This document shows, one piece after another, positions 23,630 through 61,591 of a stretch of 64,000 nucleotides of DNA. Each line of letters begins with the position of its first letter. Within the stretch, counting starts at the first letter, position 1. Location: assembly GCF_024158125.1 (NCBI RefSeq), contig NZ_JAMZFT010000001.1, positions 62,001 through 126,000 on the forward strand, given 5' to 3'. Origin of the DNA: Futiania mangrovi. GTDB taxonomy: Bacteria; Pseudomonadota; Alphaproteobacteria; Futianiales; Futianiaceae. The notes beneath the pieces are model-generated. The model had not been told where the DNA came from. It searched no databases and worked only from the letters and a program-made list of their open reading frames with translations. A program made the translations under genes and the position numbers.

Positions 23630-24304
23630 TTATTCCGATTTCGGCAGGTTGAAGAGGCTGTCTGCGTCGATCTCTTCCTCACGCCCGTCCGCGCGCAGGT
23701 CGTCGGGGTGGGTATCCTCCGCGAGGCTGTCCGCCGCCGGCATGAGCGTCGCGCCCTCTGCCGCCTGGGGATTGTCCTTGGCGAGCTTGGCCTGCGCCTT
23801 CTGCACGGCCTGGTCCAGCTCCACCTGCGTGCAAAGGCCGATCGACACGGGGTCGATGAACTTGAGGTTGGCGGCATTCCAGTGCGTCTTCTCGCGGATC
23901 GCCTGGATCGTCGTCTTCGTCGTGCCGATCAGCTTCGAGATCTGCGCGTCCGAAAGCTCCGGATGGTAGCGCACCAGCCAGTTGATCGCGTCCGGCTTCT
24001 CCTGCCGCTTGGAGACGGGCGTGTAGCGCGGCCCCTTCTGCTTGATCTTCGGCAGGGCGAGGTCGCGCGCGCGCATCTTCAGGCTGGCGGCGGGATCGGC
24101 CTCGCAGCGGGCGATCTCCTCGCGCGTCAGTTCACCCGCCGTGACCGGGTCGCGCCCCTTGATGCCCTGCGCCACGTCGCCGTCGGCGATGCCCTGCACC
24201 TCCAGCACGTGCAGGCCGCAGAAGTCCGCGATCTGGTCGAAGGACAGGGTGGTGTTGTCGATGAGCCAGACGGCCGTCGCCTTGGGCATGAGCGGCGTGG
24301 ACAT
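23630..24304 (-). CDS. trcR: Cell cycle transcriptional regulator TrcR (DUF1013)
   Basis: This 224-residue protein is a DUF1013 member, annotated in alphaproteobacteria as TrcR, a putative cell-cycle transcription factor. Visible marks are MPKATAVWLIDNTTLSFDQI at the N terminus, DFCGLHVLEVQGIADGDVA, and a helix-turn-helix-like segment LSDAQISKLIGTTKTTIQAI around residues 120-139. The C terminus is acidic and probably disordered. An AT-rich stretch with TATATA on the minus strand at 24422-24427 may be its -10 box. The order with the quinone oxidoreductase and DUF1192 behind it recurs in alphaproteobacteria. Confidence 0.9.
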   Translation of the reverse strand: MSTPLMPKATAVWLIDNTTLSFDQIADFCGLHVLEVQGIADGDVAQGIKGRDPVTAGELTREEIARCEADPAASLKMRARDLALPKIKQKGPRYTPVSKRQEKPDAINWLVRYHPELSDAQISKLIGTTKTTIQAIREKTHWNAANLKFIDPVSIGLCTQVELDQAVQKAQAKLAKDNPQAAEGATLMPAADSLAEDTHPDDLRADGREEEIDADSLFNLPKSE

Positions 24305-25581: not shown

Positions 25582-25776
25582 ATGATCTGGGACGAGGTGC
25601 CGCCGCCGAAGCCTGAGGGGATCGTACCGGGCGCGGATCTGTCGCGCCTGTCGATCGGGGAGCTTGAGGAGCGCATAGCGACGCTCAAGGCGGAGATCGC
25701 ACGGGCCGAGCAGGCCATCTCGGCCAAGCGCGCGAGCAAGGATGCCGCCGATTCCGTCTTCGGCGGGCCGCGTTAA
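25582..25776 (+). CDS. DUF1192 family small protein
   Basis: This 64-residue protein matches DUF1192, recognised by MIWDEVPPPKPEGIVPGADL and the following helix LSRLSIGELEERIATLKAEI. The rest is a short coiled coil. The family is alphaproteobacterial and of unknown role. The ATG at 25582 has a GGGAGGGAAAGG ribosome site. It lies divergently beside the quinone oxidoreductase gene. Confidence 0.88.
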   Translation: MIWDEVPPPKPEGIVPGADLSRLSIGELEERIATLKAEIARAEQAISAKRASKDAADSVFGGPR

Positions 25777-25965
25777 CCGGGCCTTAAGGCTTCCCGTGCT
25801 TTAACCATGAGGCGTGCCGCGATCCGGCACGGCCTGGTGGACGATCCTCCACCTTTTTCGATGCCTCCCTGTTAGACTTGAGCCGTGCCTGTCACGGCTC
25901 TTTCTTTTTGCGCCCGCCGCCCGCATCGTGGGCCATGATCGGGGCCGGACAGGGGGGCGAGGCCA

Positions 25966-26871
25966 ATGCTTTCGATCCCGCGCGTGCCGTCCCGGCGGAC
26001 AGCCGTCGTCGTGGCGCTGCTCGGCCTTCTGGCGGTTAGCCATTCGGTCCTCTTCATCCGCCTCGCCGACGCGCCGGCGGTCACCATCGCCTTCATGCGG
26101 GTTCTCGTGGGCACGCTCGTGTTCGCGCCGTTCGGCGCCGCGGCGCTGCGCGCTCTCGAGGGGGTCGATCCGGGCATCATGCGGCGCGCGGTGCTGTTGT
26201 CGCTGGGCAGCGGGGCGTTCCTCGCGGCGCATTTCGCAAGCTGGATCGCCTCCATGCAACGGGTGAGCATCGCGGAATCCATGGTGCTGGTCAGCCTGAC
26301 ACCGATCTGGATCGTGCTGATCGACGCGGCGCTGGGCCGCGGTGCGCCGGGCCGTTTGCTTGCCGGCGCCATCGCGCTCTGCCTTGCGGGCACGGCGGTG
26401 CTGGGCTTTCAGGGCGCGCAGCGTGTGGACGGCGACCTGCTCGGCCTTGGCCTTGCGACGGCGGGGGGCGTGTGCATGGCGGTCTACCTCACGGCCGGGC
26501 GCACCGCGCGTCAGCACCTGCCGGTCACGGCCTATGTGACGCTGTGCTATGGCTCCGCAGCGGCCTGGCTCCTTGCGGGCGCTTTGCTGGGCGGAGTTCC
26601 GCTGGGCGGTTTCGGCGAACAGACATGGGCGGCGATGATCGCGCTCGGCCTCGTGAGCCAGGTAATCGGACATACGAGCTACAACTGGACGCTGGGCACC
26701 CTGCCGCCGGTCTTCGTCGCGGTCTGTCTCCTGGGGGAGCCGATTCTCGGTGCGCTGCTCGGCCTCCTCTACCTGCAGGAGGCGATTCCGCCGGGCGCCG
26801 CCGCGGGTGGGGTCCTGATCCTCGCCGGCCTCGGACTGGCGCTGGCAGCAGAACTGCGGAAGGCGGGCTGA
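25966..26871 (+). CDS. EamA (DMT superfamily) transporter
   Basis: This 301-residue protein has ten predicted membrane helices in two EamA repeats. Typical segments are FIRLADAPAVTIAFMRVLVG near residue 30, ESMVLVSLTPIWIVLIDAAL near residue 105 and a second-repeat LLGEPILGALLGLLYLQEAI near residue 255. It is only distantly similar to the EamA gene at 22651, so the two are not a recent duplication. It stands alone. Substrate unknown. Confidence 0.88.
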   Translation: MLSIPRVPSRRTAVVVALLGLLAVSHSVLFIRLADAPAVTIAFMRVLVGTLVFAPFGAAALRALEGVDPGIMRRAVLLSLGSGAFLAAHFASWIASMQRVSIAESMVLVSLTPIWIVLIDAALGRGAPGRLLAGAIALCLAGTAVLGFQGAQRVDGDLLGLGLATAGGVCMAVYLTAGRTARQHLPVTAYVTLCYGSAAAWLLAGALLGGVPLGGFGEQTWAAMIALGLVSQVIGHTSYNWTLGTLPPVFVAVCLLGEPILGALLGLLYLQEAIPPGAAAGGVLILAGLGLALAAELRKAG

Positions 26872-26947
26872 GGCGGCCCGCGCGCCGACCGCAGCCTGGC
26901 CAGGGGCGAAAATTTGACGGATCTGTCATCGGCCTGACGCATGGCGC

Positions 26948-26977
26948 TTGACGAAGATCGACAGCCACGGCTACGAT
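26948..26977 (+). promoter_or_regulatory. Sigma-70-type promoter of the candidate RNA
   Basis: TTGACG (26948-26953) and TACGAT (26972-26977) are separated by 18 bases. A transcript would start near 26984 and run into a strong terminator at 27093-27128. Confidence 0.55.
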
Positions 26978-26983
26978 CCTTCT

Positions 26984-27132
26984 CGACAGGCAAGTCTGAC
27001 AGGGATGCGTCAAAAAGAATTGGGGGGCTGGCGGTTTTCAGGAACCGGCAGCCCTTTTCAAAAGGACGCAGAAGATAAGCCAGGGGAGACCGAACGGGGC
27101 TGCCGCGCGACCGCGCGGCGGCCCCGTTTGCT
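26984..27132 (+). ncRNA. Candidate structured small RNA or leader
   Basis: This roughly 150-base non-coding stretch lies between the EamA gene and DUF1465. It begins 7 bases after a good promoter and ends in a strong terminator. An outer helix TGCGTC (27006-27011) / GACGCA (27065-27070) encloses a 12-bp hairpin GGGCTGGCGGTT (27025-27036) / AACCGGCAGCCC (27043-27054) with one mismatch. It could be a free small RNA or an attenuating leader of DUF1465, whose start is 170 bases past the terminator. I cannot match it to a known family. The rest of the 429-base gap (26872-27300) holds only a GGACGT/ACGTCC inverted repeat near 27230. Confidence 0.45.
27093..27131 (+). terminator. Strong intrinsic terminator
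   Basis: A 16-bp stem with one G-U pair (left arm 27093-27108, right arm 27113-27128) has a four-base loop GACC and ends in TTT. It lies upstream of DUF1465, not behind a protein gene, since the preceding EamA stop is more than 200 bases away. Confidence 0.85.
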
Positions 27133-27300
27133 TGCGCGTCCGCCCTGCGTTCGCCGCCGTTCTCTTTTTCCACAGGCCGCCTCCCGAAGCGTCACGATGC
27201 GGCACGGACTGTGCATTACCGGAGCAATGGACGTTCCAGGACGTCCCCGAATGATCCAGCCGGGGCACAATCGGCGGATGAGCACAGGCGGCGGGGCACA

Positions 27301-27909
27301 ATGATGAGCAGCGTGGGTGAGCAGTTGCACACGGCAGGAAGGCAACAGGACAGGGCGGACATGGTCGCGCAGATCGGCGCGCGCCAGTTCGCGAGTTCGG
27401 CGGTTTTCTACAAGACCTTCGACGAGGCCATGGCGCTGGTGCAGGAAACGGCGGCCTATCTCGATGGGCAGGGACGCTTTGAAAGTCAGGATCTTGGCCG
27501 GGATTGCGCCCTTGTGTACGCCGCCGAAAGCATGCGTCTGACGACCCGGCTGATGCAGGTGTCGTCGTGGCTGCTGGCGCAGCGCGCGCTGCAGAAGGGG
27601 CAGATCGCATACGCCGAGGCTGCGGGGCCGAAATACCGGCTGTCCATGCCTGAGCCGTCGGTTGCACCGAACCCGCGTGTCCTGTCGCAGCTTCCGGACC
27701 GGTTCGTCACACTCATATCGCGTAGCCGCAGACTTTACGCCCGTGTCAAAAGGATTGACACGCAGCTGTACGGCGAGGGCGATCGAACGCAGCTTGCGGA
27801 GCCGCCGTTTGCCCATCACATCCGCCGTATCGAGGCTGCTTTCGCACCGGCGTTGCGCATGGACACCGCGCAGGCCGAGCCGCGGCATTCGCGTGGCGGC
27901 CGCGCCTGA
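27301..27909 (+). CDS. DUF1465 family protein
   Basis: This 202-residue protein is a DUF1465 member, a family restricted largely to alphaproteobacteria. Landmarks are FASSAVFYKTFDEAMALVQE near residue 33, AAESMRLTTRLMQVSSWLLA near residue 80 and ALQKGQIAYAEAAGPKYRLS after it. It is cytosolic and mostly helical. Function is unproven; the conserved place next to rpmE and an ABC exporter is typical of the class. A second ATG one codon later is equally possible. A strong terminator follows. Confidence 0.85.
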   Translation: MMSSVGEQLHTAGRQQDRADMVAQIGARQFASSAVFYKTFDEAMALVQETAAYLDGQGRFESQDLGRDCALVYAAESMRLTTRLMQVSSWLLAQRALQKGQIAYAEAAGPKYRLSMPEPSVAPNPRVLSQLPDRFVTLISRSRRLYARVKRIDTQLYGEGDRTQLAEPPFAHHIRRIEAAFAPALRMDTAQAEPRHSRGGRA

Positions 27910-27952
27910 CCGGCGCGGCCAGCCCGGCATCGTTCAAGGGGGGCAGGCGCGC

Positions 27953-27988
27953 AAAGGGCGCGGAGGGGGAAACCCGTCCGCGCCCTTT
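27953..27988. terminator. Intrinsic terminator between DUF1465 and rpmE
   Basis: A perfect 12-bp stem (AAAGGGCGCGGA with TCCGCGCCCTTT) continues into an inner GGG-GAAA-CCC hairpin, giving a very stable structure. It lies between two convergent genes and can serve both. Confidence 0.88.
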
Positions 27989-28056
27989 CCGTCTTGAGGT
28001 GCGCCGCTCGAGGGCAGAACAGGGGCGCGTTACACCGCGCCCATGCGTTCGGCCGC

Positions 28057-28287
28057 TCAGCTCTTGATGACGCCGAAGCCTTCGAACCGCTTCTTGAAGC
28101 GGCTGATGCGGCCGCCCGTGTCCATCAGGCGCTGGGTGCCGCCCGTCCACGCCGGGTGGGACCTGGAGTCGATGTCGAGGGTGAGCGTGTCGCCCTCTTT
28201 CCCATAGGTCGAACGGGTCTGATAGGTCGTGCCATCGGTCATGGCGACGGTGATCATGTGGTAGTCGGGATGTCCGTCTTTCTTCAT
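28057..28287 (-). CDS. rpmE: 50S ribosomal protein L31
   Basis: This 76-residue protein is bL31, a component of the large subunit that bridges to the small subunit. It begins [20 protein letters not shown], with [20 protein letters not shown] in the middle and a basic tail. It has no cysteine at all, so it is the zinc-independent form, as is usual in alphaproteobacteria. ATG 28287 gives the canonical start. It is divergent from the ABC exporter. Confidence 0.95.
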
Positions 28288-43344: not shown

Positions 43345-43510
43345 GCGCGGGAACTGCCCGGTTCGTCAGACGCGTAAATCCCGGGAGCCGATATCGACCT
43401 CCAGGGAGCTGTCCCTGCTCCGGGCCGTGGCCTGGAACACACGGCGCCCACCTGTCTATGACGGGCTCACGGAGGATTTCAGACCGTCAACGGCCAGGGT
43501 GGTCCCGCAC
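43345..43510 (+). ncRNA. ssrS: 6S RNA
   Basis: 6S RNA binds sigma-70 RNA polymerase by mimicking an open promoter and lowers transcription in slow growth. The hallmark GAGCCGATAT is at 43385-43394. The terminal stem forms from GCGGGA (43347-43352) with TCCCGC (43503-43508), and the bubble-flanking helix from AAATCC (43376-43381) with GGATTT (43474-43479). The location between zapA and the 5-formyltetrahydrofolate cyclo-ligase gene is the classic one. Ends are approximate. Confidence 0.88.
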
Positions 43511-61532: not shown

Positions 61533-61540
61533 GCTCGCGG

Positions 61541-61586
61541 GCCACGCCTCCCCAACGAGGCGCGACCCATCTGTGAGGATGGGAGA
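61541..61586 (+). promoter_or_regulatory. serC-type 5' leader RNA
   Basis: Two hairpins precede serC. The first pairs CGCCTC (61545-61550) with GAGGCG (61557-61562). The second pairs CCCATC (61566-61571) with GATGGG (61578-61583) and covers part of the GGGAG ribosome site. The position and two-hairpin form match the serC motif described for alphaproteobacteria. Whether it senses a ligand, protein or nothing is unknown. Confidence 0.65.
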
Positions 61587-61591
61587 AATCC

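Follow-up and report, generated by a model that had tools for sequence, protein, structure and literature searches.

The closest described counterparts of the RNA reported here are CrfA of Caulobacter crescentus, QrrX of Vibrio, and a pair consisting of a trans-acting small RNA (sRNA) and its cis-encoded antagonist, which we take to be CJnc190/CJnc180 of Campylobacter. According to PMC12559287, the Caulobacter sRNA SisA has an anti-Shine-Dalgarno type core and represses many mRNAs, and CrfA sponges the alphaR8 sRNAs SisA-D via their UUUCCUCCCU core. QrrX, as described there, is a sponge of the Qrr sRNAs that covers several siblings (PMC12559287), and the account of the trans-acting sRNA and its antagonist places both at one locus (PMC8687705).

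Here, we analysed a window of Futiania mangrovi DNA (the whole stretch studied, 64,000 nucleotides) and consider it likely, judging from sequence, that a predicted RNA within it (the window RNA) is a sponge, or anti-sRNA, for the neighbouring sRNA BjrC1505 (RF02356) and probably also for a sibling sRNA on contig C3. Like CrfA, it appears to be a small RNA dedicated to a conserved family of alphaproteobacterial sRNAs, to whose CCUCCC core it is complementary, and as with CrfA and QrrX, one sponge could serve several siblings. Unlike CrfA, which was compared by its published description, the window RNA has BjrC1505 and the C3 sibling as its presumed targets, with pairing to alphaR8/mmgR at chance, and it would pair through its predicted 5′ end rather than through the second stem loop; its gene lies downstream of that of its target. 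QrrX, as described, belongs to a different bacterial class and has a different target. An antagonist RNA at the same locus is also what PMC8687705 describes, but there it is cis-encoded, whereas in the window the two genes follow each other on one strand. With BjrC1505 itself, the window RNA has the core in common only in complement, and it is no member of that family.

The RNA locus and its genomic neighbours

The gene order is trcR (PF06242), a zinc-type dehydrogenase, DUF1192, EamA, the RNA, rcdA/DUF1465 and, on the opposite strand, rpmE (Table 1). Between the end of EamA at 26871 and the start of rcdA at 27301 only mechanical ORFs occur, and six of those that overlap the RNA region matched no Pfam family at E ≤ 0.01, in line with the initial annotation, which had described the space as free of protein genes. 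The promoter that it had reported, TTGACG-18-TACGAT, can be read directly, with the −35 at 26948–26953, the −10 at 26972–26977 and a spacer of 18 nt, and is the sole sigma70-like site on either strand of 26000–28200 (shuffle mean 0.2). A TTGAC −35 is found in 12 of 12 relatives when alignment A9 is read together with the flanking sequence: ten of its 12 rows display TTGAC, and the other two start at TGAC from the cutting of the rows, the flanks restoring TTGAC. From the distance to the −10, we infer that transcription starts at 26985.

Table 1. Positions of the features discussed, with strand and basis of assignment (window coordinates unless a contig is given)
Feature	Position	Strand	Basis
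BjrC1505 (RF02356) homolog, presumed target sRNA	25768..25907	+	38.2 bits, E 6e-6, gathering 50
EamA transporter gene, between BjrC1505 and the window RNA	25966..26871	+	ORF list, Pfam
Sigma70-type promoter of the window RNA, TTGACG-18-TACGAT	26948..26977	+	Sequence reading, site scan
Predicted RNA 5′ end, BjrC1505-complementary segment	26985..27017	+	Pairing computations
First hairpin and UUUUC, aligned to the terminator of relatives' partner RNAs	27023..27059	+	Folding, alignment
18-bp GC hairpin followed by a poor U-tract; may act as a second stop	27091..27132	+	Folding, hairpin scan
Sigma54-like −24/−12 element, presumed rcdA/DUF1465 promoter	27200..27215	+	Loose match, CGGCACGGACTGTGCA
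rcdA (DUF1465 family), outside the RNA unit	27301..27909	+	Pfam PF07323; start is our own call
Sibling sRNA (L182)	C3:141461-141537	-	RF00519-like, 35.1 bits, cut-off 41

The helices proposed for this locus proved real, as the predicted RNA (26985–27132) folds at −81.2 kcal/mol (z −8.1), a value that none of 200 shuffles reached. Hairpin 1 spans about 27023–27057, with UUUUC at 27055–27059. The second hairpin (27091–27130) has 18 contiguous pairs with G-U allowed and is the longest uninterrupted one with a loop of 3–8 in the 64-kb window, where the runner-up has 14 pairs. What had been called a 16-bp terminator therefore exists as a hairpin, but with 18 pairs instead of 16 and with a poor U-tract behind it (GUUUGCUUG), and the terminator rule of the scanning tool called no terminator in the RNA region. 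Since this U-tract is weak, some read-through is possible, and because hairpin 1 aligns with the terminator of the relatives' RNAs, a product of about 75 nt ending near 27059 may be as likely as one of about 145–148 nt ending at the second, stronger hairpin.

An Rfam search of the window RNA gave no family at cut-off, the best scores (sodF 21.3, mir-572 19.9 and BTH_s1 18.7 bits) staying far short of gathering, and the BjrC1505 covariance model was absent from the 15 Rfam matches to it up to E 10 on both strands. BLAST with the RNA DNA against 385 genomes of the class, none of them another member of the window's order, returned no homolog beyond itself at E ≤ 1e-4, and an earlier search of 58 class genomes at the same threshold likewise returned only itself. 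The best of the weak matches, in L002 (E 0.0017) and located by eye in an AraC-type regulator-like gene, was judged a chance hit. Elsewhere in the window, 6S RNA (43348–43509) and a serC leader (61535–61587) score above their Rfam cut-offs.

Downstream, a DUF1465 profile built from 16 family members matches RcdA 3ctw (E 4e-62). With the single DUF1465 protein as query, neither viral nor genome contigs yielded a relative; a scan with the alignment confirmed 589 stretches, and among the best 80 of these identity to the window protein is at most 55%. The last hairpin ends about 170 nt upstream of the rcdA start codon. Of 110 distinct loci, 30 carry the sigma54-like element (TGGCAC-N5-TTGCA) upstream of rcdA in its strict form and 40 in its loose form, compared with 0 and 13, respectively, of 1717 background windows. 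rcdA is probably driven by its own promoter past the hairpin, and the −24/−12 enrichment suggests control by RpoN. The transcriptional cell cycle regulator gene trcR (PF06242) lies at 23630–24304, a few genes from rcdA; rcdA is a cell-cycle gene as well, so that two such genes flank the RNA pair.

Complementarity to BjrC1505 and the C3 sibling

With 38.2 against 50 bits, the element at 25768–25907 misses the gathering cut-off of RF02356; its core, its terminator and its place after DUF1192, also seen in relatives such as L205, match the family, and we call it a BjrC1505 homolog and nothing stronger. It stands about 1 kb upstream of the RNA; its core reads CTTTTTCGATGCCTCCCTGTTAGACTTG, the pairing core lies at about 25851–25881, and the conserved core of BjrC1505-type sRNAs is CCUCCCUG. 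Among the 13 relatives' loci scanned, BjrC1505 is upstream of rcdA in 12, ten of them at ≥50 bits and two at 48–49. The C3 sibling has a CCTCCCTG core, eight T after the terminator and a second TTCCTCCCTGTTGG motif upstream, and the same genome also encodes a true mmgR/alphaR8 copy (C1:57911-57988, 63.6 bits). Tandem BjrC1505 cores 200 nt apart were seen in L164 and L165 (genomes G209 and G377). No functional paper on BjrC1505 was found among the open-licence PubMed Central papers.

The segment CAAGTCTGACAGGGATGCGTCAAAAAG at 26991–27017 pairs with the BjrC1505 core in a duplex that contains a single mismatch, a single bulge and two G-U pairs, GACAGGC (26985–26991) pairs with the loop of the BjrC1505 terminator, and the C3 sibling pairs with the window RNA across 17 contiguous bases. 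The duplex of the RNA 5′ segment with the BjrC1505 core reaches −39.6 kcal/mol, and none of 5000 dinucleotide shuffles was as low. For the full-length duplex, 6 of 1000 shuffles were as low. The signal is weaker once the self-folding of the full RNAs is counted: for the dimer gain, 6 of 300 (BjrC1505) and 2 of 300 (C3 sibling) shuffles were as low. Pairing with the true mmgR/alphaR8 copy was no better than chance (139 of 300 shuffles as low). We also scored 18,212 36-nt segments drawn from the window and from 15 further loci of this genome, excluding the antisense of BjrC1505 itself; duplexes below −35 kcal/mol with both BjrC1505 and its sibling on C3 were confined to segments of the window RNA. 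A 21-nt core pattern searched with ≤3 mismatches had three hits in 3.39 Mb, namely BjrC1505, its C3 sibling and the window RNA in complement (reversed control, 0). The window RNA is thus complementary to the sRNA core beyond chance.

Partner RNAs in other genomes

Outside the window, complement ranking within BjrC1505 loci combined with reading of the flanks located partner RNAs in seven genomes (G028, G256, G112, G041, G167, G264 and G280), all of them encoded behind BjrC1505 in the same orientation. Each combines a hairpin with a −35 of TTGAC and a core related to CAAGTCTGACAGG; the partners in L155, L175 and L177 were picked out by eye and not by energy ranking. Non-partner stretches elsewhere ranked equally strong (e.g., L158, −46.6, z −4.9), and energy alone therefore cannot single out partners. 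What recurs is a layout in which BjrC1505 is followed by a same-strand short RNA with a core like CAAGUCUGACAGG, typically composed of a pairing region, an A-rich linker and a GC hairpin. The window RNA lies 1.1 kb downstream of BjrC1505 on the same strand, with the EamA gene in between. The genes behind partners elsewhere include a Cys/Met metabolism PLP enzyme (L176, L162) and a 6-phosphogluconate-dehydrogenase-type gene (L204), and Rfam assigned the partners to no family at cut-off, with weak overlaps to RefA9 (28.8 bits, L163) and rli56 (29.9 bits, L204).

Three models were used, none of which includes the G028 copy. Model R1, built from seven members with the window included, had matches in 10 of the 385 class genomes (E ≤ 0.01), of which G341, G358 and G186 had not seeded it. 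The BjrC1505 core lies upstream of the match by 98 nt in G341 and 153 nt in G358; in G186, the partner is near the end of one contig and a BjrC1505 motif near the end of another, so that their adjacency stays unproven. Model R2 (ten members) gave one match in each of 24 of the 25 genomes in the order of G041, all 24 located 138–158 nt core-to-core downstream of BjrC1505, and matched 13 of 15 genomes in the order of G280, where 11 of the 13 matches lie 161–234 nt downstream of BjrC1505; seven of these 37 matches (four and three, respectively) are in genomes that seeded the model. The two matches without an adjacent BjrC1505 are those in G416 and G186. At the G416 locus (L243), where a partner RNA occurs with no BjrC1505 detected, an integrase-core (transposase) gene ends directly before the partner promoter. 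R2 found a partner in none of 80 named rcdA loci and R1 matched 7 of the 34 sources given to it; many genomes with BjrC1505 thus have no detected partner, and the partner is limited to some lineages.

Alignments across lineages show that promoter, BjrC1505-complementary core and terminator are kept, with variable linkers. In alignment A8 (the window plus 13 partners, all from one order, with L228 left out), the terminator stem is conserved and 4 of the 11 pairs in the alignment's structure are changed on both sides, but the covariation term, at −0.36, is small, and 5 of the 14 rows have a break or gap in one of these four pairs. Model R3, for which 12 partners but not the window were used, found no match to the window RNA when 118,850 bases were searched with default settings, and it missed the G028 copy as well; with filters off it gave a 12-bit local match at 26982–27003 (E 0.00015 for 501 bases, about 1 when scaled to the genome). 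Because a model without the window detects the window RNA so weakly, its common descent with the other partners is plausible but unproven, and an RNA of the same function could also have arisen independently, for instance from a BjrC1505 core copied in inverted orientation.

In each of 30 own pairs of partner and BjrC1505, the duplex beats at least 199 of 200 mononucleotide shuffles. Over all 30, the mean energy of own pairs is only slightly lower than that of swapped pairs (−29.7 vs −28.2), as expected given the shared core. With eight lineage representatives, 588 of 40,320 assignments were as low as the own pairing, and 216 of 40,320 when helix 1 was taken alone. Matching changes between target and partner comprise GACUUG/CAAGUC, GACUCG/CGAGUC, CUUGCC/GGCAAG and UUAAACUUUC/GAAGGUUUAA; L238, with the target GCCTCG beside CGAGTC, is a mismatched exception, and helix 2 varies in the order of G041 without strict covariation. 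These comparisons argue, with moderate force, for a pairing preserved across lineages by matching changes that represent few independent events.

Alternative readings and proposed function

The initial annotation had offered a small RNA or an attenuator. As promoter, helices and hairpin are present, the small-RNA half of this proposal holds, and the presumed partner and the relatives speak for it as well. A transcription attenuator or riboswitch in the rcdA/DUF1465 leader would suit the position of all three elements 5′ of the gene, and the poor U-tract of the last hairpin would let some transcripts pass; however, the sigma54-like element of rcdA lies downstream of that hairpin, which makes attenuation unlikely, no Rfam family reaches cut-off on the RNA, and in other genomes the partner RNAs lie in front of other genes, so that we give this explanation hardly any credence. 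We also regard it as very unlikely that the locus is the decayed remnant of an inverted BjrC1505-like sRNA gene copy encoded by the minus strand, the plus strand being functionless. Its minus strand does read TTTTTGACGCATCCCTGTCAGACTTG, with a GACGC nearer to the family consensus than that of the window's own BjrC1505, and has the lineage's AGACTTG, yet it lacks the GC hairpin and T-run that stand behind the core in five other aligned copies, whereas hairpins and a well-positioned promoter are found on the plus strand, and partners of other orders have a similar core on the plus strand. A BjrC1505 core on the strand opposite rcdA occurs in one of 123 oriented loci (some of them overlapping), namely in the window itself.

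Complementarity has no direction, and the window RNA might instead be a target or co-acting partner of BjrC1505 with another job, through mRNA targets of its own or a small ORF. The further large hairpins of the window RNA would fit such a role, as would the report in PMC12559287 that in Caulobacter both RNAs lower each other. A start codon 2–21 nt past a GAGG-like element is present in 11 of 41 partners, but the peptides are dissimilar, differing in length and sequence, and the other 30 have no start codon in this range; no small ORF is thus conserved, and what the lineages retain is the promoter, the BjrC1505-complementary core and the terminator rather than the linkers. Such a role therefore seems improbable to us, while still deserving consideration. 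Promoter, helices, complementarity, the tandem order in other lineages and a pairing kept through some matching changes all favour the reading of the window RNA as a sponge.

For the action of such a sponge, we infer transcription, the 5′ and 3′ ends, any need for Hfq, the role of BjrC1505, the direction of regulation and the inducing signal. The CCUCCCUG stretch of BjrC1505-type sRNAs could mask the Shine-Dalgarno sites of mRNAs. Because the window RNA presents the complement at its predicted 5′ end, it would occupy this stretch and, following the precedent of CrfA, would mask both BjrC1505 and its sibling; the occupied BjrC1505 would let its mRNAs go free, and the paired RNAs would perhaps both be sent to decay. 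On balance, we lean towards a two-gene RNA module in several alphaproteobacterial orders, in which an anti-Shine-Dalgarno sRNA of the BjrC1505 family is followed on the same strand by a co-evolving sponge. No printed account of a BjrC1505 sponge pair was found in open-licence PubMed Central papers, which is no proof of novelty.

If this is true, it would be a second sponge system, besides CrfA, for alphaproteobacterial sRNAs with a CCUCCC core, and it would show that a sponge and its target can be inherited together as a fixed pair. The pair would form an RNA-only switch whose layout is kept whether it lies next to rcdA, a Cys/Met metabolism enzyme gene or a dehydrogenase gene. A direct, testable handle on BjrC1505 function would come from a neighbour that co-evolves with it and masks its core, and the module would explain how this conserved sRNA family gets turned off.
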